Origin: Prevotella melaninogenica | GTDB lineage: Bacteria > Bacteroidota > Bacteroidia > Bacteroidales > Bacteroidaceae | DNA: 64,000 nt | Reading direction: 5' to 3' | Assembly (NCBI RefSeq): GCF_018127925.1 | Contig: NZ_CP072348.1 | Location: 1,408,001-1,472,000, forward strand | In this document: positions 7,194 to 62,233 of the stretch, piece after piece | How positions within the stretch are numbered: position 1 is the first letter of the stretch | Layout of the letters: every line of letters begins with the position of its first letter | The notes under the pieces: generated by a model | The model's database searches: none | Seen by the model: only the letters and a program-made list of their open reading frames with translations | What the model was told of the DNA's origin: nothing | Position numbers and translations under genes: made by a program

Positions 7194-7658
7194 TTATTCA
7201 GGGACTGGACCGACACTTTCCTCTTTCTTTTTCTTCTCTTTCTTTTCCTCCTTCTCTTTCTCATCCTTCCACTCCTCCCAGTAGATAGTTTCAGACACCA
7301 GCGAACGAGTGGCAACCTTATTGCTTTGTGTGCGTGAGGTTTCAGGAATGAAGCGGACACGGATGCCTTTTATCTGCTTTGCCGTCACTTCTTCTGGCTT
7401 CGCAATTCCCTTGTCGGCATTGATAGTGTAGTAAAACGTGCCGACACCCTCCAACTTCACCGTGCGACCCTCTGCCATAAAGGACGCCAGCACACCGCCT
7501 AAATCTTTCAGTACAGCATACGTGTCACCACGACTCACCGTTGAAATCAATGCCAATCGGTCAGCCACTTGGTCTGTCGTTACGGGCTTCCCTACGGTTA
7601 TCGCTTCTGGATACCATAGTCCTGTTAGCTTTTTCTTTACTTTCTTAAAAAATGCCAT
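7194..7658 (-). CDS. HU/IHF-like DNA-binding protein (HU-HIG type), cassette A
   Basis: A 154-residue protein of the Bacteroidetes HU-related DNA-binding family. The HU-like fold spans about residues 18-125: a helical dimerisation part (TTDQVADRLALISTVSRGDT, YAVLKDLGGVLASFM), the strand pair VKLEGVGTFYYT and the arm region ending VRFIPET. The C-terminus is an extreme Lys/Glu run (about residues 132-148) ending GPVPE, an ending also found in its paralogue at 47072-47536. It is the last gene of cassette A, 274 bases downstream of the variable lipoprotein gene on the same strand, with a palindrome array between. Linkage to a surface lipoprotein gene in both cassettes suggests a local regulatory or DNA-structuring role; this is inference. 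Confidence 0.85.
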   Translation of the reverse strand: MAFFKKVKKKLTGLWYPEAITVGKPVTTDQVADRLALISTVSRGDTYAVLKDLGGVLASFMAEGRTVKLEGVGTFYYTINADKGIAKPEEVTAKQIKGIRVRFIPETSRTQSNKVATRSLVSETIYWEEWKDEKEKEEKKEKKKKEESVGPVPE

Positions 7659-7711: not shown

Positions 7712-7808
7712 GAGCCACCCTCGGTATGGGACTGAGGGTACCTAAGTATCATACTTAGGGTACCTGAGTATGATACTTAGACCCCCTAAGTATCATACTT
7801 TGGCACCC
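7712..7808. repeat. Tandem palindromes at 22-bp spacing, CTAAGTAT/ATACTTAG type
   Basis: Four palindromes are centred on 7728, 7750, 7772 and 7794, each exactly 22 bp apart. The first is CCCTC/GAGGG; the other three are variants of CTAAGTAT-c-ATACTTAG. The array lies between the variable lipoprotein gene and the HU-like gene of cassette A, the same position as a different palindrome array in cassette B (47608-47746). Confidence 0.85.
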
Positions 7809-7932
7809 TGTTTATAAACCCTTGATTATCAGTCACTTACAAAGAGCCTATTTTTATTCTCTTTTGTCATGTTTTTTCGCATTAATTCTTGCCTTTTAGA
7901 GGACGATACCAGTAAAGGGGCAATCGCAAGAA

Positions 7933-9534
7933 CTACTCGACTGCAGGCTCGACCCTGAACCCGCGGTCGCGGAGGCTGTACTCCACGTTGACTCTACCAC
8001 TGTTGAAGTACAGCATGTACGCTTGCCGGCTCTCCCACGGGTGAGCACTTGACGACCAATAGTAGCCGTTGTCGCCAACGCGTTGCAGCTGCCCATTGAC
8101 GTAGTAACCCAAGGCGGGCAGGTAGAAGTAATTGGTTGCGTCAGCGGCGGAAGGGACACCAGAATTGATACTAATGTTGTTGTTGACGTACTCCTTGTAT
8201 GTTGTACGTAGGTCGGTTGAACCATCAGCGGGTTTCTCGGTGTCATAATGATTCTCTGCTTGTAATACAGACTTCTTCTTAAACCACATGCCGCCTTTAT
8301 ATAAGTGACCCATAGTAGTCCATAGTTCATCTGCATCCCAACGTGGATCGCCAAACATTACATACCAAGACAGCTCGTTGGCGTTTGGAAGGTCTTTGCA
8401 AGATGTGTGAGTAGCGGGGTTGCTTACGCCGTAACCTGGGTAACTTTCGTTGTAGTAACGAGGGTCAGTATTGCTCTTAGCAAAGACGTTGTTGTTATAG
8501 GCCGAGTTCAACACTGGCTGGTCTTTATTGGCTGACCACCATTCGTGCCCCTTCCAGTATTGATCCTGTGCATCCCACATGTAGTAATGGTCGCCGTCGT
8601 AATTCTTTATTTGCAAATCAGCTTCCATGTTGACATATTCATTCTTTGCAAAGGTATGAGAAGGAATAATCTTGGTAATTGTTCCCTCTATTTGTGTCGC
8701 AACATCCTTTACCCAGTAACGAATTCTTAATGTGTGTGTACCGGGCTTGATAACCATATAAGCACCATTGGTTGTTAAGCTGGCAGAAGTGTTTGTCAAA
8801 GGGAAACCATTTTGGTATGTACTTCCTGAGTTTCCTTTTGTTATAAGCTCTATCTTTTTACCAGAACCTGTACCTGTCAATGCACCAGTGCCAGTTGCTG
8901 CCGTTGGATCAAGGGTATAGGTAGATGTGATGTCGTTATCTGATGTTACCTCTATCTTCGTGAGATAGCAATACTTTAGTACATCATCGCTTGTGTAAGG
9001 CTTAAAGACGAGGTAAGCAGCCTTGTGGTCGAGTGCAAACTCAAACTCGTGGCTTGTAGCGTTGCGTGTTGCCTTGGCTATACCGCAATCGCCTGATGTG
9101 CCAAAGTGAGCGGTGGTGTTGGGCTCTGTTTGCGTTTGATTCGCAGAGATGGTTACTTGATCTTGATTACCATTCTTGCCAGGGTAATAAACCTCGTATG
9201 AAGACTTAGCAGTGTACTTACCAGGCATTAAGAATTTGAAAGATGCTGTCTTGCCTGTTGGCGAGTTGCTACTTTGCTTCCAATTACCGCTATCATCCTT
9301 TACCCAAATCTTATCGCCTGCTTCCCAATAGAATTTACCATCTGCCTCCATGGTTGTGCGTGTTGCAGGTTCGCCTGTGCTGAATGCAGTTAAACCTTTG
9401 TCGTCAGTTGTAGTTTTGCCGTTCTGTGCTAAATCATCATTTGCACAAGAGGCAAAAGCTAGTGTTAAACCACACACGACAGCCAAAGACGCTAGTCGTG
9501 TGATGAATGAATGTCGTTTCATTGTCTTCTTCAT
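7933..9534 (-). CDS. Variable surface lipoprotein A: fimbrillin-like N-terminus with C-type-lectin-like variable C-terminus
   Basis: A 533-residue lipoprotein with lipobox LAFASC and Cys30, followed by acidic ANDD, compatible with Bacteroidetes outer-surface export. About residues 45-320 resemble Mfa/fimbrillin-like pilins (GDKIWVKDDSGNW). The last ~200 residues end in the pattern YYWSSSA, AYxLxF, VxV, RDxGxRVE seen in FGE/C-type-lectin-like domains used as variable proteins by diversity-generating retroelements. The first ~320 residues are almost identical to lipoprotein B at 47771-49354; residues 477-526 (7957-8106) are the candidate variable region. A 33-base gap separates it from the upstream 70-residue gene, so the two are probably co-transcribed. 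The ligand is unknown. Confidence 0.85.
   Translation of the reverse strand: MKKTMKRHSFITRLASLAVVCGLTLAFASCANDDLAQNGKTTTDDKGLTAFSTGEPATRTTMEADGKFYWEAGDKIWVKDDSGNWKQSSNSPTGKTASFKFLMPGKYTAKSSYEVYYPGKNGNQDQVTISANQTQTEPNTTAHFGTSGDCGIAKATRNATSHEFEFALDHKAAYLVFKPYTSDDVLKYCYLTKIEVTSDNDITSTYTLDPTAATGTGALTGTGSGKKIELITKGNSGSTYQNGFPLTNTSASLTTNGAYMVIKPGTHTLRIRYWVKDVATQIEGTITKIIPSHTFAKNEYVNMEADLQIKNYDGDHYYMWDAQDQYWKGHEWWSANKDQPVLNSAYNNNVFAKSNTDPRYYNESYPGYGVSNPATHTSCKDLPNANELSWYVMFGDPRWDADELWTTMGHLYKGGMWFKKKSVLQAENHYDTEKPADGSTDLRTTYKEYVNNNISINSGVPSAADATNYFYLPALGYYVNGQLQRVGDNGYYWSSSAHPWESRQAYMLYFNSGRVNVEYSLRDRGFRVEPAVE
7957..8106 (-). other. Candidate hypervariable region (VR) of lipoprotein A
   Basis: This stretch is 50 codons, compared with 47795-47944 of lipoprotein B. 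Thirteen codons differ only at bases 1 and/or 2; in ten of these the third base is C in both (CAC/GTC, TAC/CTC, AAC/TCC, CTC/ACC, TAC/GGC, CGC/GTC and others). Twelve more differ including base 3. Framework blocks are identical, including 24 bases covering GYYWSSSA and GTCAACGTG; AGGGTCGAGCC follows the region. NNC codons on a fixed framework are expected when template AAC codons undergo adenine-specific mutagenesis. Confidence 0.6.
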
Positions 9535-9567: not shown

Positions 9568-9780
9568 TTAGTCTTCCCAAGCGGAAAATTCTCCTTCGTT
9601 TTTATCGCCTACTTCCTGCCATGCTGGTGCTTGCTTAGCACTACTAATGGTTCCTCCAGGAGTTGCTGGATTATGCTGACCATTAAACGGAGACCCTACC
9701 ATTAAATTTGTGGTTTCATTTACTTGAATTATCATGCAACGTGGTGCAGAATAATCCTTCTTTTCTTGTTTCTTTCTCAT
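9568..9780 (-). CDS. Conserved 70-residue peptide, cassette A
   Basis: A 70-residue protein with a basic N-terminus (MRKKQEKKDYSAP), a central SPFNGQHNP motif, GGTISSAKQAPAWQ and an acidic, aromatic end (EFSAWED). It has no signal peptide or membrane segment. The paralogue at 49388-49600 has the same length and is about 85% identical, differing mostly in the last 15 residues. Conservation in two loci, its own start after the long leader, and a 33-base gap to the lipoprotein gene support a real gene. The function is unknown; a secreted peptide, a partner of the lipoprotein or a regulatory leader peptide are all possible. Confidence 0.75.
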   Translation of the reverse strand: MRKKQEKKDYSAPRCMIIQVNETTNLMVGSPFNGQHNPATPGGTISSAKQAPAWQEVGDKNEGEFSAWED

Positions 9781-10308
<528 letters not shown>

Positions 10309-43267: not shown

Positions 43268-43780
43268 ATGAGAACAACCATCTTTACTATCGCATTTGCT
43301 GCAGCTATTCTATGCTCAAGCTGCACCGTAAAAGCCAACCCAACGACGCTCATCACACAACCGATGAATGATGAGGTAGAGTCTATTATCAAAGAGTTTA
43401 AGAGTGGAGACAACGTCACTTACGTCAACTTGCCAAAGACACTCATAAAGCTTGGATTGAAGGCTGCCGACGACGAGACCGCTAATGCACTCGCTGAGCA
43501 AATCGACGGACTGCAAATTTTAACTTTCGAGAAGGCTAATCAAAAGATTAAAGACGGCTTATACAACCGTATCAGTAAGTTGGAAGCACAGGGATACGAA
43601 CCTATGGTGAAGGCAAATGAGGACGGCGAAAAGGTCAGAATCTTCATTAAAGGCAACGAGAAGGAAGTGCAGAGCCTTGTTGTCTTCGCTATGGACAAAG
43701 AAGACTGCTCACTCATCAATATCGTAGGACATATCAATCCTGCTAATATTGATGATGTCGTAAAGTCACAAACCAAGTAA
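43268..43780 (+). CDS. DUF4252 lipoprotein (first of three paralogues)
   Basis: A 170-residue lipoprotein; lipobox LCSSC with Cys19. The DUF4252 domain covers about residues 38-165 (VTYVNLPKTLIKLGLKAADD, LQILTFEKANQ, VRIFIKGNEKEVQSLVVFAM, LINIVGHINPANID). Function is unknown; the family is confined mainly to Bacteroidetes and often sits beside ECF sigma genes. It starts a run of five plus-strand genes with short gaps: two DUF4252 genes, sigma factor, anti-sigma-like protein, third DUF4252 gene. Confidence 0.88.
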   Translation: MRTTIFTIAFAAAILCSSCTVKANPTTLITQPMNDEVESIIKEFKSGDNVTYVNLPKTLIKLGLKAADDETANALAEQIDGLQILTFEKANQKIKDGLYNRISKLEAQGYEPMVKANEDGEKVRIFIKGNEKEVQSLVVFAMDKEDCSLINIVGHINPANIDDVVKSQTK

Positions 43781-43793
43781 ACAAAGACACGCT

Positions 43794-44291
43794 ATGAAAC
43801 GGTTTATCATCATAGGCATCCTTGCTCTCAGTACATTATCAGCCTCAGCGCAGAGCGTAAAAGGGCTGATTGAGCAATATAGGCACGAGAAAAACGTTAT
43901 TCACCTTCATATAACACCTGCCTTAATGTCATTCTTGAAGGTGCTTGCTAAAAGCCATTCGGACGATTCCAAGGCTCTGAAAGCGGTGTCTTCCTTTCGT
44001 ATACTTGTCTTTGACGACTGTGATTCGATTGTAAAAAGTCGTTTTAGAAACACGGTTCAGACCTTCCATCCTAAGGGATATACGCCAATCATCTACAATA
44101 AGCAGGCAGATGAGACTAATTATGTTTACCTCAAAGAAAAGAAAGGGTGCATTCGTGAACTGCTCATTCTCGCTATTGACAAACAAGATGGCGCCATTGT
44201 GCGGATTAAGGGTAAGATAAGTCCTAACGATGTCGACTCTGTTGTGAAAGAAAGTACCAACAAGAAGAATCTGAAAAGCTATAAGTTATAG
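43794..44291 (+). CDS. DUF4252 exported protein (second paralogue)
   Basis: A 165-residue protein with a cleavable signal peptide (ALSTLSASAQS, about 1-20) and no lipobox, so probably periplasmic. The DUF4252 core is VIHLHITPALMSFLKVLAKS, FRILVFDDCDS, NYVYLKEKKGCIRELLILAI and IVRIKGKISPNDVDSVV. It starts 13 bases after the previous gene, a clear co-transcription arrangement. The C-terminus is lysine-rich. Confidence 0.85.
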   Translation: MKRFIIIGILALSTLSASAQSVKGLIEQYRHEKNVIHLHITPALMSFLKVLAKSHSDDSKALKAVSSFRILVFDDCDSIVKSRFRNTVQTFHPKGYTPIIYNKQADETNYVYLKEKKGCIRELLILAIDKQDGAIVRIKGKISPNDVDSVVKESTNKKNLKSYKL

Positions 44292-44343
44292 GGCGGACAA
44301 CCTTACATCATAGCCGATTATTGTCTAAAGCGCACATCTGCCT

Positions 44344-44853
44344 ATGCAAGCAAGCGATTTTAAACAGCTATTCCTACCCTGCCATCGGAAACTCTTTTCG
44401 GTGGCATATAGGCTGATGAGCAACGCTCAAGCTGCTGAGGATATGGTGCAAGAAACCTTCTTAAAACTCTGGATGCAGCGTGATAAGATGGAAAAGGTTG
44501 ACAATCCAGAGGCTTATAGCATAACAGTACTACGCCGACTCTTCTATGACAAGATGAGAGCAGGACACCTTCAAGAAGTCGACAAAGATGTGGGAAGTCT
44601 GCAAATAAGCTCCTCACAGAACATAAGTAAGCAATTAGAGGAAGCTGACGAATACCAACGCGTAAGGCAGTTGATTACCCACCTGCCCGAACCACAGGCA
44701 AAAATCATGCTGATGCGTGATGTTGAAGACTGCAGTTTTGAGGAAATCAGCACCGAAACAGGGCTTTCGGAGGTGAATGTAAGAAGTATTCTCAGCCGTG
44801 CCCGAAAGAAGATTAGAGAACAGATAAAAGCAATGAGATATGATAAAGACTGA
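44344..44853 (+). CDS. ECF-type RNA polymerase sigma factor
   Basis: A 169-residue sigma-70 family factor with region 2 at about 8-78 (LSVAYRLMSNAQAAEDMVQE-like wording, TFLKLWMQRDKM) and region 4 at about 105-160 (LPEPQAKIMLMRDVEDCSFE, EISTETGLSEVNVRSILSRA, RKKIRE). It would redirect RNA polymerase to envelope-related promoters. Its last 14 bases overlap the next gene, an anti-sigma-like membrane protein, a typical sigma/anti-sigma pair. Flanking DUF4252 genes are likely part of the regulon or of the signal input. Confidence 0.93.
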   Translation: MQASDFKQLFLPCHRKLFSVAYRLMSNAQAAEDMVQETFLKLWMQRDKMEKVDNPEAYSITVLRRLFYDKMRAGHLQEVDKDVGSLQISSSQNISKQLEEADEYQRVRQLITHLPEPQAKIMLMRDVEDCSFEEISTETGLSEVNVRSILSRARKKIREQIKAMRYDKD

Positions 44854-45322
44854 AGAAATAAAGCGTTTACTTGACCGATACTACGATGGAATGACCACCG
44901 AAGAGGAGGAGAAGGCGCTGCGCACCTACTTCAACGGCAGTGATATCAATGCCAGTTTGAAGGAGGAGCGCATCTTCTTCACGGCTCTTCAGTCATCAGA
45001 ATGCCCTACACCAGCAGGGATGGAAGAACGGCTCAGTCGACAGATTAGCCAGTGGAACACCTTAGAAGTCACTAATCGTCGTGCGATAAGGCATATCAAC
45101 CTACGCTGGGTAGTAGGAATAGCAGCCAGTTTGTTGCTTCTCTTTGCTGCAGGAGCTATCGTTTACCAAAACGAGAATAAGTCTCCACAAACTGAACAGG
45201 ATACCTATACTAACGCTAAAGACGCTTACGCCGAAACGTCAAAAGCACTGATGAAATTCTCAAAGACGCTCAATAAGGGTATTGACGCTACCGAGAACAT
45301 CACTAATAAAACAAGGGATTAG
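44840..45322 (+). CDS. Anti-sigma-factor-like single-pass membrane protein
   Basis: A 160-residue protein that overlaps the sigma gene by 14 bases. A cytosolic N-terminal part of about 90 residues (EEIKRLLDRYYDGMTTEEEE, LSRQISQW) resembles anti-sigma or adaptor domains. One membrane helix follows at about 92-112 (WVVGIAASLLLLFAAGAIVY) and then a short polar periplasmic tail. It lacks a recognisable zinc motif. By position it probably holds the sigma factor inactive until an envelope signal; that role is inference from context. Confidence 0.75.
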   Translation: MIKTEEIKRLLDRYYDGMTTEEEEKALRTYFNGSDINASLKEERIFFTALQSSECPTPAGMEERLSRQISQWNTLEVTNRRAIRHINLRWVVGIAASLLLLFAAGAIVYQNENKSPQTEQDTYTNAKDAYAETSKALMKFSKTLNKGIDATENITNKTRD

Positions 45323-45325
45323 ATT

Positions 45326-45784
45326 ATGAAGAGAATTATTTTAACGCTTTGTATGACTATGATAGCTTGTATAACGGCATTCGCCCAAAAGGCATTGTTC
45401 GAAAAATACAGCGAAACAGATGGTGTCTCCACTGTCTACATATCACGTAATATGATGCGAATGATGGGCAATGTGAAAGCAGGTAACAAGGATATCAGCA
45501 AGATTGCCAGCCGACTCGACTATCTGCAGATACTCTCCTGCGAACGTCCTTCACTGATTCCTTCTATCAAGAAGTCTGCCCAAAACATCTTCAATCAACA
45601 AAAGTATTCGATTGTAATGCAAGTCAATGAGGGGGGCGAACATACTACTATCTACGAGCGGCATTACCCAAATGGAAAGAAAGAGTTTGCCCTGCTTGCC
45701 ATAGAACGCAACGAGATAACAATTATCAACCTACTTGGTAATATCTCTCTACAGGATATTCAAGGAATAGCTGGTGGGAAATAA
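45326..45784 (+). CDS. DUF4252 exported protein (third paralogue)
   Basis: A 152-residue protein with a signal peptide (IACITAFAQ, about 1-20). DUF4252 core: VSTVYISRNMMRMMGNVKAG, LDYLQILSCERPSL, EFALLAIERNEITIINLLGN. It starts three bases after the anti-sigma-like gene. Its stop codon lies in the loop of the terminator hairpin at 45770-45793. Confidence 0.87.
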   Translation: MKRIILTLCMTMIACITAFAQKALFEKYSETDGVSTVYISRNMMRMMGNVKAGNKDISKIASRLDYLQILSCERPSLIPSIKKSAQNIFNQQKYSIVMQVNEGGEHTTIYERHYPNGKKEFALLAIERNEITIINLLGNISLQDIQGIAGGK

Positions 45785-47071: not shown

Positions 47072-47536
47072 TTACCCTGCCTCTGGTCCTCCCTCTTCTT
47101 TATTCTCCTTTTCTTTCGGCTCGGGGACAGGGCCTTTTGCCTTCTTCCTCGCAGGATTATCCACATCCACCTGCAATTCCTTCAATGCCTTGCGCACCGA
47201 CTCTTTCCAAGTCAATGTCAATTTCGGAGCTTTGAGGCTCTTGGCGCATACGTCCTTCTCGTTTTCCTCCATCTTTGAGGGAACGTTCACACGCAAAGAG
47301 AAAATATCACCGAGGTCTAAGCCTGTTCCCATGCGGGCACATTCAAGGATAAGGTTACGCAAGGTGATAATCACATTACGAGCATCACCCTCCGTCAATG
47401 AGGTTTCACGAACAATACGTTCCAACACCATTTCGGGTGAGATCTTTTGTTGACCTTTTGGTACGGCGATATACACCGTTTTACCCTTCATTTTTCCCAT
47501 TGTCGCCTTACGAGGCGCAACTTTGAATTCAATCAT
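47072..47536 (-). CDS. HU/IHF-like DNA-binding protein (HU-HIG type), cassette B
   Basis: A 154-residue HU-related protein, the same length as its cassette A counterpart but strongly diverged. The HU-like region spans about residues 2-120: MIEFKVAPRKATMGKMKGKT, the helices ISPEMVLERIVRETSLTEGD and ARNVIITLRNLILECARM, and the strand LDLGDIFSLRVNVP. The tail is Lys/Glu/Pro-rich with GPVPE followed by KEKENKEEGGPEAG. It lies 234 bases downstream of lipoprotein B with a palindrome array between, the same architecture as cassette A. A DNA-bending or regulatory role in the cassette is inference. Confidence 0.82.
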   Translation of the reverse strand: MIEFKVAPRKATMGKMKGKTVYIAVPKGQQKISPEMVLERIVRETSLTEGDARNVIITLRNLILECARMGTGLDLGDIFSLRVNVPSKMEENEKDVCAKSLKAPKLTLTWKESVRKALKELQVDVDNPARKKAKGPVPEPKEKENKEEGGPEAG

Positions 47537-47607: not shown

Positions 47608-47746
47608 TATACCCAGCGGTTGGGTCGTCTTGTACCCAGCTGCTGGGTAGCATCGTACCCTGCCCGTTGGGTAGACTCCTACCCATTCGCTGGGTACGAT
47701 CGTACTTCTTCGCTGGGTACAACTCTACCCATTCGTTGGGTACAAA
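47608..47746. repeat. Tandem palindromes at ~23-bp spacing, TACCCAGC/GCTGGGTA type
   Basis: Six palindromes of the form TACCCA-N-TGGGTA, centred near 47618, 47641, 47664, 47688, 47711 and 47734, spacing 23-23.5 bp. The best is TACCCAGC-t-GCTGGGTA at 47633-47649. It occupies the gap between lipoprotein B and HU-like gene B, where cassette A has a different palindrome array. Confidence 0.88.
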
Positions 47747-47770: not shown

Positions 47771-49354
47771 TTACTCAAACGATGGCTCGACCCTGATCCC
47801 GCCGTCGCGGGTACCGTTGCGCACGTTGACGTCGCTACTGGAGAAGAGCAAGTTGTACGCGCGGTAGCTGTTCCCCGGGACAGCACTTGACGACCAATAG
47901 TAGCCGTTAATACCAACGACGTTCAGCTGACCAAAGGCGTAGCCACCCAAGGCGGGCAGGTAGAAGTATTTGTTTGCATCAGCTGCGGAAGGAAGAGTCC
48001 GAGAAACGGACCAGCTGTCTCCATTGCTATTTATACGCCAATCAGTACCGTCGACAGCGGTGTTACTGTTGTAACCGCTTATGTATGCATTCTTCTTAAA
48101 CCACATACCACCTTTATATAAATGACCCATAGTAGTCCATAATTCATCTGCGTCCCAACGAGGATCGCCGTACTTTGCGTACCACGTCATCTCGTTTACG
48201 TTGGGGAGAGTTGAGCAACTCTGAGTAGCATCGAAGCGACCTGAACCGCTACTCTCGTGATAGTAACGATGCTTAGGGTCGCTACTACTCTGGGGGAAGT
48301 TTGATGAACTGTTACCAATAAGGGTTGGCTGGCCTGTGTTTCCTGGTAAGTGCTTTGTCCATTCATAACCTTTCCAGTATTGTTCCTGTGCATCCCACAT
48401 GTAGTAATGGTCGCCGTCGTAATTTTTAACTTGTAGGTCTGCTTCCATGTTGACGTATTCATTCTTTGCAAAAGTATGGGAAGGTATGATCTTAGTAATA
48501 GTTCCCTCTACGTGTGTTGCAACATCCTTTACCCAGTAGCGGATTCTTAAAGTGTGTGTACCTGGCTTGATAACCATGTAAGCACCATTGGTTGTTAAGC
48601 TAGCAGAAGTGTTTGTCAAAGGGAAACCATTTGCATAAGCACCACTACCAATGGTTTCAAGCACAATCTGCTTTCCGTTACCTGTACCTGTTAATGCGCC
48701 TGCACCAGTATCTGCAGTTGGATCAAGTGTATAGGTAGATGTAGATGCGATATCATTATCTGATGTTACCTCTATCTTAGTGAGATAGCAATACTTTAGT
48801 ACATCATTGCTTGTATAAGGCTTAAAAACAAGGTAAGCAGCCTTGTGGTCGAGTGCGAACTCAAATTCGTGGCTTGTAGCATTGCGTGTTGCCTTGGCTA
48901 TACCGCAATCGCCTGATGCGCCAAAGTGAGCGGTGGTGTTAGGCTCTGTTTGTTTCTGCTTATTGGAGATAGTTACTTTATCTTGACTACCATTCTTGCC
49001 TGGATAATAAACATCGTATGAAGATTTGGCGGTGTACTTACCAGGCATTAAGAACTTGAAAGAGGCAGTCTTGCCCGTTGGCGAGTTGCTACTTTGCTTC
49101 CAATTGCCGCTATCATCCTTTACCCAAATCTTATCGCCTGCTTCCCAATAGAATGTACCATCTGCCTCCATGGTTGTGCGTGTTGCAGGTTCGCCAGTGC
49201 TGAATGCGGTTAACCCTTTATCGTCAGTTGTAGTTTTGCCGTTCTGTGCTAAATCATCATTTGCACAAGAGGCAAGGGCTAATGTTAAACCACACACGAC
49301 AGCAAAAGATGCTAGTCGTGTGATGAATGAATGTCGTTTCATTGTTTTCTTCAT
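47771..49354 (-). CDS. Variable surface lipoprotein B: fimbrillin-like N-terminus with C-type-lectin-like variable C-terminus
   Basis: A 527-residue paralogue of lipoprotein A. Lipobox LALASC with Cys30, then ANDD. The fimbrillin-like part (about 45-315) is nearly identical to A; the middle (about 330-455) is diverged apart from the shared block DPRWDADELWTTMGHLYKGG; the C-type-lectin-like end is GYYWSSSAVPGNSYRAYNLL, FSSSDVNVRNGTRDGG and IRVEPSFE. Residues 471-520 (47795-47944) form the candidate variable region. The pattern fits a diversity-generating retroelement target acting as an exposed adhesin; a plain duplicated fimbrillin-family lectin is the alternative. Confidence 0.85.
   Translation of the reverse strand: MKKTMKRHSFITRLASFAVVCGLTLALASCANDDLAQNGKTTTDDKGLTAFSTGEPATRTTMEADGTFYWEAGDKIWVKDDSGNWKQSSNSPTGKTASFKFLMPGKYTAKSSYDVYYPGKNGSQDKVTISNKQKQTEPNTTAHFGASGDCGIAKATRNATSHEFEFALDHKAAYLVFKPYTSNDVLKYCYLTKIEVTSDNDIASTSTYTLDPTADTGAGALTGTGNGKQIVLETIGSGAYANGFPLTNTSASLTTNGAYMVIKPGTHTLRIRYWVKDVATHVEGTITKIIPSHTFAKNEYVNMEADLQVKNYDGDHYYMWDAQEQYWKGYEWTKHLPGNTGQPTLIGNSSSNFPQSSSDPKHRYYHESSGSGRFDATQSCSTLPNVNEMTWYAKYGDPRWDADELWTTMGHLYKGGMWFKKNAYISGYNSNTAVDGTDWRINSNGDSWSVSRTLPSAADANKYFYLPALGGYAFGQLNVVGINGYYWSSSAVPGNSYRAYNLLFSSSDVNVRNGTRDGGIRVEPSFE
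47795..47944 (-). other. Candidate hypervariable region (VR) of lipoprotein B
   Basis: The 150 bases align without gaps to 7957-8106. Framework codons (NGYYWSSSA, AY, F-S, VNV, RD, G-RVE) are the same in both; about 25 of 50 codons differ, 13 of them only at bases 1 and 2. Both copies are G/C-rich relative to the rest of the window and are followed by AGGGTCGAGCC and, after the stop codon, a shared TTGCGATTG. Confidence 0.6.
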
Positions 49355-49387: not shown

Positions 49388-49600
49388 TTAGTTTTCCCAA
49401 GCGGAAAAATCGTCTTCGTTCTCATTGTCAGCTCCCTGCCATGCTGGTGCTTGCTTAGCACTGCTGATGGTTCCGCCTGGGTTTGCCGGGTTATGCTGAC
49501 CATTAAATGGAGACCCCGCCATTAAATTTGTGGTTTCGTTTACTTGAATTATCATGCAACTTGGTGCAGAATAATCCTTCTTTTCTTGTTTCTTTCTCAT
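49388..49600 (-). CDS. Conserved 70-residue peptide, cassette B
   Basis: Paralogue of the peptide at 9568-9780, same length. MRKKQEKKDYSAPSC, TTNLMAGSPFNGQHNPANPG and SSAKQAPAWQ are conserved; the tail ENEDDFSAWEN is the least conserved part. There is no signal peptide. It lies 33 bases upstream of lipoprotein B, as in cassette A. The function is unknown. Confidence 0.75.
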   Translation of the reverse strand: MRKKQEKKDYSAPSCMIIQVNETTNLMAGSPFNGQHNPANPGGTISSAKQAPAWQGADNENEDDFSAWEN

Positions 49601-50130
<530 letters not shown>

Positions 50131-61843: not shown

Positions 61844-61882
61844 TTAGTTGACAAGTAAACAAGTTGTGAAGTAAACAAGTTA
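61844..61882. repeat. GTTGACAAGT-type repeat, left flank of the four-helix-bundle gene
   Basis: AGTTGACAAGTAAACAAGTT followed by GTGAAGTAAACAAGTT: two tandem AAGTAAACAAGTT units. The complement of the right flank begins CTAGTTGACGAGTTGACG and contains GTTGACAAGTTG. Confidence 0.6.
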
Positions 61883-62233
61883 TTTGTTCAGAGTCTTAAT
61901 CAAAGACGTTAGCATCCTAATTATGCCTTGGGTCTTATCGCATAGTTGCTGTGCAAGTTCTGTCGAGATATACCCTAAGTCTTTCGATAGAATCAATTGA
62001 GTTTCTAACTCACACGCAGAACCTAATGATATACTGAGAAATCTCTCAGTCTCACGAGTGTGGATTCTGCCATAGCCTTCTGCTATGTTCGAGGGAATTG
62101 ATACAACGGCTCTACGCATTTGGGAAGCTAATCCAAATAGTTCTTCCCGTGGATATGTCTTTGTAGCTTTGTATACTTCTAGGACAAGTTCCATTGCTTT
62201 CTGCCATACAATCAAATCCTTGTGAGTATTCAT
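61880..62233 (-). CDS. Four-helix-bundle protein (23S rRNA intervening-sequence family) between frdB and frdA
   Basis: A 117-residue protein of the four-helix-bundle/S23-IVS family: [40 protein letters not shown] (the signature SIPSNIAEG), [20 protein letters not shown] and a final helix. Such genes occur in rRNA intervening sequences and as stray genes; the function is unknown, and a distant relative (Avd) serves in diversity-generating retroelements. Here it sits between frdA and frdB, normally adjacent, flanked by inverted GTTGAC repeats (61844-61882 and 62306-62347), which suggests an inserted module. Same orientation as the operon, so transcription is not blocked. Confidence 0.9.

Follow-up and report, generated by a model that had tools for sequence, protein, structure and literature searches.

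Diversity-generating retroelements (DGRs) are usually found through their reverse transcriptase (RT), and most of them have been described with one or a few targets. In Bacteroides, DGRs are prevalent and diversify type V tip pilins, as a review of these pili describes them [PMC12632263]. Strains of Treponema denticola without the RT and the template are reported to keep leftover targets, mostly lipoproteins, with adenine-derived variation, and Table 1 of that report gives two to six targets for each RT-less strain [PMC4891356]. Here we describe a far larger set of such targets. The gene sequences give good support to the view that two lipoproteins, A and B, are members of a family of about 48 outer-surface lipoproteins that resemble type V fimbrillins and carry a DGR variable region as their C-terminal tip.

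The DNA analysed here (the window) is a stretch of 64 kb at positions 1408001-1472000 of contig C2 in a 3.36-Mb, two-contig Prevotella genome that is listed as 99.96% complete and in the same genus as P. vespertina. Lipoprotein A (533 residues) is encoded on the minus strand at window positions 7933-9534. It consists of an N-terminus that looks lipobox-like by eye, a type V fimbrillin-like domain (residues 45-310 on the model) and a variable C-terminal domain with hypervariable NNC codons at 7963-8106 (minus strand, residues 477-524). The N-terminal part of the lipoproteins matches the fimbrillin fold of the type V fimbrillin superfamily. On the 5' side of A and on the same strand are a small ORF of 70 residues at 9568-9780 with no NCBIfam or Pfam match, a terminator-like leader hairpin followed by a T run at 10067-10094, and an (AC)n tract at 10169-10201, which reads TG on the plus strand and comes immediately after a -7-like TATTTTGC motif. 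A gene for an HU-related DNA-binding protein (7194-7658, minus strand; TIGR01201, E 1.1e-25) lies 3' of A. Lipoprotein B (527 residues) is encoded at 47771-49354, also on the minus strand, and its variable region at 47801-47944 (residues 471-518) aligns with residues 477-524 of A. Its 5' side carries, again on the minus strand, a 70-residue ORF without an NCBIfam match (49388-49600), a leader hairpin with a T run (49885-49912) and an (AC)n tract (49987-50023), and an HU-HIG protein gene is located 3' of it (47072-47536, minus strand; PF18291, E 1.4e-10). The tracts of cassettes A and B are the two period-2 arrays listed for the window. The HU-type genes 3' of A and B are of differing subtypes, and arrays of 22-23-base repeats, part of them palindromic by eye, lie between each lipoprotein gene and its HU-type gene (7731-7809 and 47610-47745). 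The window also contains, at 43268-45784, an ECF sigma factor gene amid those for three DUF4252 proteins and one further ORF.

A sequence-only reading of the window had described A and B as nearly identical over about 320 residues with divergent ends, and the comparison bears this out. Over residues 1-320 of A (318 aligned codons), there are 25 amino-acid differences, and nucleotide differences, summed over three bins, number 16, 11 and 72 at codon bases 1, 2 and 3. Over the last 53 aligned codons, the corresponding numbers are 20, 11 and 15. The figures given earlier for the divergence of the tips hold for a stretch comprising the last ~57 codons. Thirteen codons within residues 477-526 of A differ only at base 1, base 2 or both, ten of which end in C in both genes, and the 24 bases coding for GYYWSSSA are identical in A and B.

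A and B are not the only targets, as that reading had supposed: the genome carries 48 copies. Searching the genome at the protein level with A as the query gave 50 places: A itself, 47 paralogs and two short N-terminal matches. The paralogs are open frames on both contigs that cover most of the query at 40-79% identity, and the start positions of some family genes are approximate. Codon statistics were calculated from 42 of the 48 copies, g37, g39 and g44-g47 being dropped as divergent.

The tips of these 42 copies bear the codon signature of DGR mutagenesis. Amino-acid entropy peaks at residues 501-525. At 22 hypervariable C-terminal codons (A residues 477-524), which were picked by amino-acid entropy in the same data with the third base left out of the selection, bases 1 and 2 are near random and base 3 is C in 666 of 922 cells. 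The background over residues 1-320 is 3543 of 13124 (27%), and eight upstream codons that pass the same entropy cut and serve as an internal control have C at base 3 in 113 of 332 cells. When only codons with C or T at base 3 are counted, C is commoner than in the background for 15 of 15 amino acids, one of which is represented by a single cell. All 22 codons end in C in each of the four freshest copies. The variation of the family lies, with the exceptions given below, at template adenines, at bases 1 and 2 of NNC codons and at the 3' end of the gene, as in a DGR target. Synonymous conservation of the framework codons is highest at residues 483-497. Because it is also raised at residues 321-360 and 401-425 and is absent at 513-527, it is weak evidence for template copying and no clean marker of the tip.

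An intact DGR with a target of this family is present in a congener, the uncultured Prevotellaceae RUG624, where the target, an accessory gene, Avd, the template and the RT lie in a row. The Avd matches bAvd at E 1.3e-9, just under the cut-off, and the RT matches RVT_1 at E 8.6e-14. The RUG624 target is 40% identical to B over residues 58-513, making the family homologous to the target of an intact DGR. The template differs from this target at 21 positions, and all 21 are adenines in the template. When the RUG624 template is mapped onto the family tips, its adenine positions are the more variable ones. The AUC is 0.88 over all 42 copies; it is 0.90 when the 15 fresh copies are taken by themselves and 0.74 in a set of seven old ones. 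In the 15 fresh tips, 38 of 46 variable positions coincide with a RUG624 template adenine. Against a full match, the other eight variable positions are not template adenines and six template adenines hardly vary, although the template is that of another species. Matches to B at E 1e-10 were found in 37 of 299 sampled genomes of the genus, and 27 of 398 genomes of the genus have an RT match to the RUG624 RT at E 1e-20. At one further locus (L190, on contig C49 of genome G318), a tip-like variable region lies beside an RT remnant that comprises only RT residues 190-398 and has one stop; this region is possibly a decay stage of a DGR of the RUG624 type.

The NNC signature, together with a RUG624 template and target that differ solely at template adenines, makes it well supported, as far as sequence comparison goes, that the family tips are DGR-type variable regions. 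The DGR-type interpretation of the sequence-only reading therefore stands on the NNC codons with their codon-usage control, the template adenines of the congener and the 21 of 21 adenine mismatches in RUG624. The C-type-lectin-like fold that it proposed for the variable domain is a putative one. That reading had also named two outcomes as telling against it: an absence of RT and A-rich template, which is what the genome shows, and a predominance of third-base or non-adenine-derived differences, which is not what the tips show. The family might instead have arisen with no retroelement at all, through ordinary duplication and recombination among paralogs, with the lectin loops under positive selection. 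The N-terminal and middle modules are indeed shuffled among the loci, and diversification is to be expected of surface lipoproteins. However, such processes do not account for a C bias in every amino-acid class with bases 1 and 2 random, nor for its absence from equally variable upstream codons; the tips do not show the excess sharing that gene conversion would produce, and a relative has a real template with A at the variable positions. We disfavour this explanation as very improbable.

Identity between tips averages 0.30 at base 1 and 0.38 at base 2 with no clear rise with N-terminal identity, and bases 1 and 2 of the hypervariable codons are near saturation in each bin of N-terminal identity. 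How alike two copies are at the N-terminus says almost nothing about their likeness in the middle, the framework or the hypervariable codons (r at most 0.08; 0.05 for the framework). Over all pairs of the 42 copies, the mean identity at bases 1 and 2 is 0.336, as against 0.336 in column shuffles, and the maximum lies inside the shuffle range, so that the copies behave as independent draws. Under a DGR mechanism, cDNA copied from an A-rich template would have overwritten each tip, its template adenines being randomised so that AAC became NNC. Because the adenines would be randomised anew at each overwriting, the copies would be independent draws.

The copies differ in the extent to which they retain the signature. 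The number of NNC codons per copy ranges from 22 of 22 down to 3 of 22, and because 14 of the 42 copies have 21 or 22, writing looks recent for those copies. The NNC fraction falls together with framework identity (Spearman 0.82, n = 42), which supports the drift at base 3 after writing that the sequence-only reading had allowed for. We infer that the gradient of NNC decay reflects the time since the last writing and that the library was written at different times. The gradient would then be an internal clock of the last writing of each copy, by which gain and loss of DGRs become directly testable.

The window contains neither an RT nor a template repeat, as had been noted from its sequence: the three RT_1 matches of the genome all lie outside it, and A and B are the only matches to the variable-region profile inside it. 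That reading placed the element elsewhere in the genome, acting on two targets; there are about 48 targets, and neither contig shows a DGR RT or template. The three RTs (PF00078) match retron-associated RTs and DRT3a/b in PADLOC. The best PADLOC matches of the first are the retron-associated RT-Protease_XI and RT-TIR_XII, names that we take to denote a retron type; this RT (L004:7673-8998) has a C-terminus that appears hydrophobic by eye. The DRT3a/b pair (L005:8101-11198) lies, also by eye, near a transposase-like gene. Searches of both contigs with the BPP-1 RT gave no candidate and with the RUG624 RT no match at E 1e-20. A tip profile (R1) was built from 35 of the 42 copies, leaving out g13, g21, g28, g33, g34, g36 and g42. 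Applied to the whole genome, with 150 of 607 first-look candidates scored, it matched 47 places at E 1, of which 46 are in paralogs (not g39 or g46) and one is in a 909-residue lipoprotein, another target gene. Among these scored candidates, R1 thus matched target genes only and no A-rich template with the same framework, and base-by-base reading of the 42 tips revealed none with enough A for a template. Three proteins match PF05635, with scores like those of IVP proteins, and none is an evident Avd orthologue. The closest of them shares 26% identity with the Avd of P. jejuni, as compared with the 42% shared by two DGR Avds, and the model barely detects the RUG624 Avd (E 0.011). One four-helix 23S-IVP protein, encoded in the window at 61880-62233 (PF05635, E 1e-40), has weak similarity to bAvd (E 4e-6, below cut-off) and likewise 26% identity with the P. 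jejuni Avd. By these sequence searches, the genome holds neither the RT nor the template of an active DGR. A resident RT, of the retron type or the DRT3 pair, might write the tips from a cryptic template, seeing that these are the sole RVT_1 matches in the genome. However, they match retron-associated and DRT3 families, and no tip-like sequence was found near them or, among the scored candidates of the genome, outside the target genes, which makes this the least credible of the explanations considered, with hardly any probability.

At least one DGR cassette is missing from a locus where a relative keeps it. A DGR locus of P. vespertina is syntenic with the gene for the 909-residue lipoprotein and the HU-type gene that follows it; where P. 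vespertina has about 3 kb with an Avd-like gene, a template and an RT, this genome has about 135 bases, the target remaining. The site of the absent block is at L199:5239-5372 (contig C2, about 125738-125871), where the 909-residue target and the HU-type gene are kept. P. jejuni has a DGR of the same kind as that of P. vespertina, and the mismatches between its template and the tip of the 909-residue lipoprotein number 26 at adenines and 3 at other bases. The missing cassette is of another template type (template scores of 47.6 bits in P. jejuni and 45.2 in P. vespertina) and so accounts for the 909-residue target but not for the 48-copy family.

The family gene g14 and its P. jejuni orthologue (L243) share their flanks by synteny. 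In the tip, the two genes have 26 differences at bases 1 and 2 and 4 at base 3; over the rest of the gene, the numbers are 43 and 65 (odds ratio 9.8, p = 7e-6). This is evidence, at the level of sequence, that the g14 tip was rewritten after the split from P. jejuni. None of 15 tips from relatives (six from P. jejuni, seven from P. vespertina and two from P. veroralis) exceeds an identity of 0.55 at bases 1-2 with any of the 42 tips of this genome. At other loci, the N-terminal module also differs from the relatives, and thus whole cassettes have probably been exchanged too. The tip-profile search was run on each of four relatives' genomes with 150 first-look candidates scored. Reading covered 7 of the 10 matches in P. 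jejuni and 10 of the 11 in P. vespertina, each set including the species' own template, together with 4 of the 5 in P. veroralis and 6 of the 27 in Hoylesella enoeca. An indel shifts the last five of the 22 columns out of register, so that the first 17 served to distinguish templates from targets. All the matches read that have the family framework are targets, with no template among them. A template with the family framework was found only in a more distant uncultured relative and in no close one, which weakens the case for loss in this genome alone. H. enoeca (JCM 12259) has 27 tip-profile matches at E 1e-6 and no match to an RT of the RUG624 type. RT-less tip repertoires may be common.

Taking these results together with the tracts described below, we consider it likely that some 48 tips were written by a DGR, that the writer is absent from this genome, and that a library ageing by drift is chosen from by tract slippage. 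Besides the RT and template that were looked for and not found, at least one cassette is missing from a locus where a relative keeps it, and the template type of the family is unseen in the close relatives examined. The leftover library of finished tips would age through ordinary drift, and its copies are probably picked stochastically by slippage of the dinucleotide tract that nearly all of them carry in the leader. The tips would presumably bind ligands. An alternative is that a mobile or strain-variable DGR, carried by a phage, a conjugative element, a plasmid or other strains, rewrites the tips in trans and is now lacking from the sequenced isolate; the writer could also sit on a plasmid or prophage that the assembly does not include. 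The rewriting that postdates the P. jejuni split, the unlikeness of all 15 relatives' tips to those of this genome, the finding of targets alone among the same-framework matches read in the four relatives, and the 14 copies that retain 21 or 22 NNC codons would all fit a visitor of this kind. However, the fresh tip g05 has no match in plasmid or phage collections, the tip profile does not match the two viral contigs in which an 18-base framework pattern occurs, seven viral relatives of the RT have no family template in the stretch examined, and one DGR is missing from a locus of this very genome. We regard such a visitor as unlikely, though far from negligible, and loss of the writer as the better account of its absence.

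The control region is as widely shared as the tips. A dinucleotide tract of 13-77 nt lies upstream of 47 of the 48 copies, (AC)n in 36 and (CT)n in 11, placing a long repeat tract at the promoter or leader, as in genes that phase-vary through simple sequence repeats (SSRs), at 47 of 48 loci. The tract immediately follows a -7-like motif, which is TAnnTTTG exactly at 8 loci and one base short of it at 34; the consensus used, TANNTTTGY, is that given in the review of Bacteroides pili [PMC12632263]. A hairpin and T run are present at 46 of the 47 tract-bearing loci, about 75 nt after the tract in three loci inspected. A motif search finds the small upstream ORF at 34 of 48 loci; A and B are not among these, but there the ORF is seen by eye. 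An HU-type gene lies 3' of 25 of the 48 copies as judged from three queries only. In the whole genome, 413 of 561 overlapping matches to the pattern (WC)8 are no more than 1,300 bases upstream of family genes. Among 100 of these matches that were listed, there are nine tracts; seven precede family copies, and two precede a small ORF, another lipoprotein gene and an HU-like gene. Two lipoprotein genes on contig C1 that are outside the 48-copy list (L317:990-2705 and L318:1168-2955) have, by eye, a small ORF and a dinucleotide tract before them and an HU-like gene after them. The control region may serve a set wider than the 48 copies.

Tracts of this kind also occur at 18 of 26 loci checked in relatives, and tract length differs between g14 (31 nt) and its P. 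jejuni orthologue (25 nt). The tracts suggest phase variation of the family copies, which would be their natural reading. If the tract switches copies, targeted hypermutation and phase variation would be united in one antigen-like family. A broader scheme, which we put forward tentatively and hold rather less probable than the explanation above, is that an intermittent DGR writes dispersed tip-adhesins and then goes, leaving repeat slippage to draw variants from the archive, the two mechanisms acting at different times.

The family resembles DGRs such as BPP-1 brt/mtd and the cellular ones in the A-directed rewriting of NNC codons in the 3'-terminal region of a surface protein. However, about 48 targets are found here, with no DGR RT or template. 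Because the genome is near-complete and 48 DGR-type targets come with no writer found, surveys based on the RT can miss whole repertoires. The T. denticola leftovers are the like case of lipoprotein targets with adenine-derived variation in an RT-less genome, as far as that report describes them [PMC4891356]. They number two to six per strain [PMC4891356], whereas there are 48 here, nearly all of which have a dinucleotide tract, and there is evidence that rewriting went on after a species split. Going by the review, the Bacteroides tip pilins are built on the same plan as this family, in which the DGR target is a lipoprotein of the type V fimbrillin-like kind that ends in an additional C-terminal domain [PMC12632263]. 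DGRs are prevalent in Bacteroides according to that source [PMC12632263], whereas this genome has no DGR RT and an expanded target family, whose role in a pilus is putative. The remote variable proteins of cyanobacterial DGRs are likewise targets far from a DGR, as their report presents them [PMC7517822]. Unlike the present family, they are tied to a DGR in the same genome and amount to 76 over a set of 21 genomes [PMC7517822]. Phase variation through SSRs, in the accounts consulted, likewise places a long repeat tract beside surface-protein genes; here, in contrast, the tract precedes DGR-written genes, and switching is what the tract would imply. Leftover targets without an RT are already known, and what goes beyond the literature compared is the size of the repertoire, its age gradient, the rewriting after the species split with no local writer, and the tract at nearly every copy.
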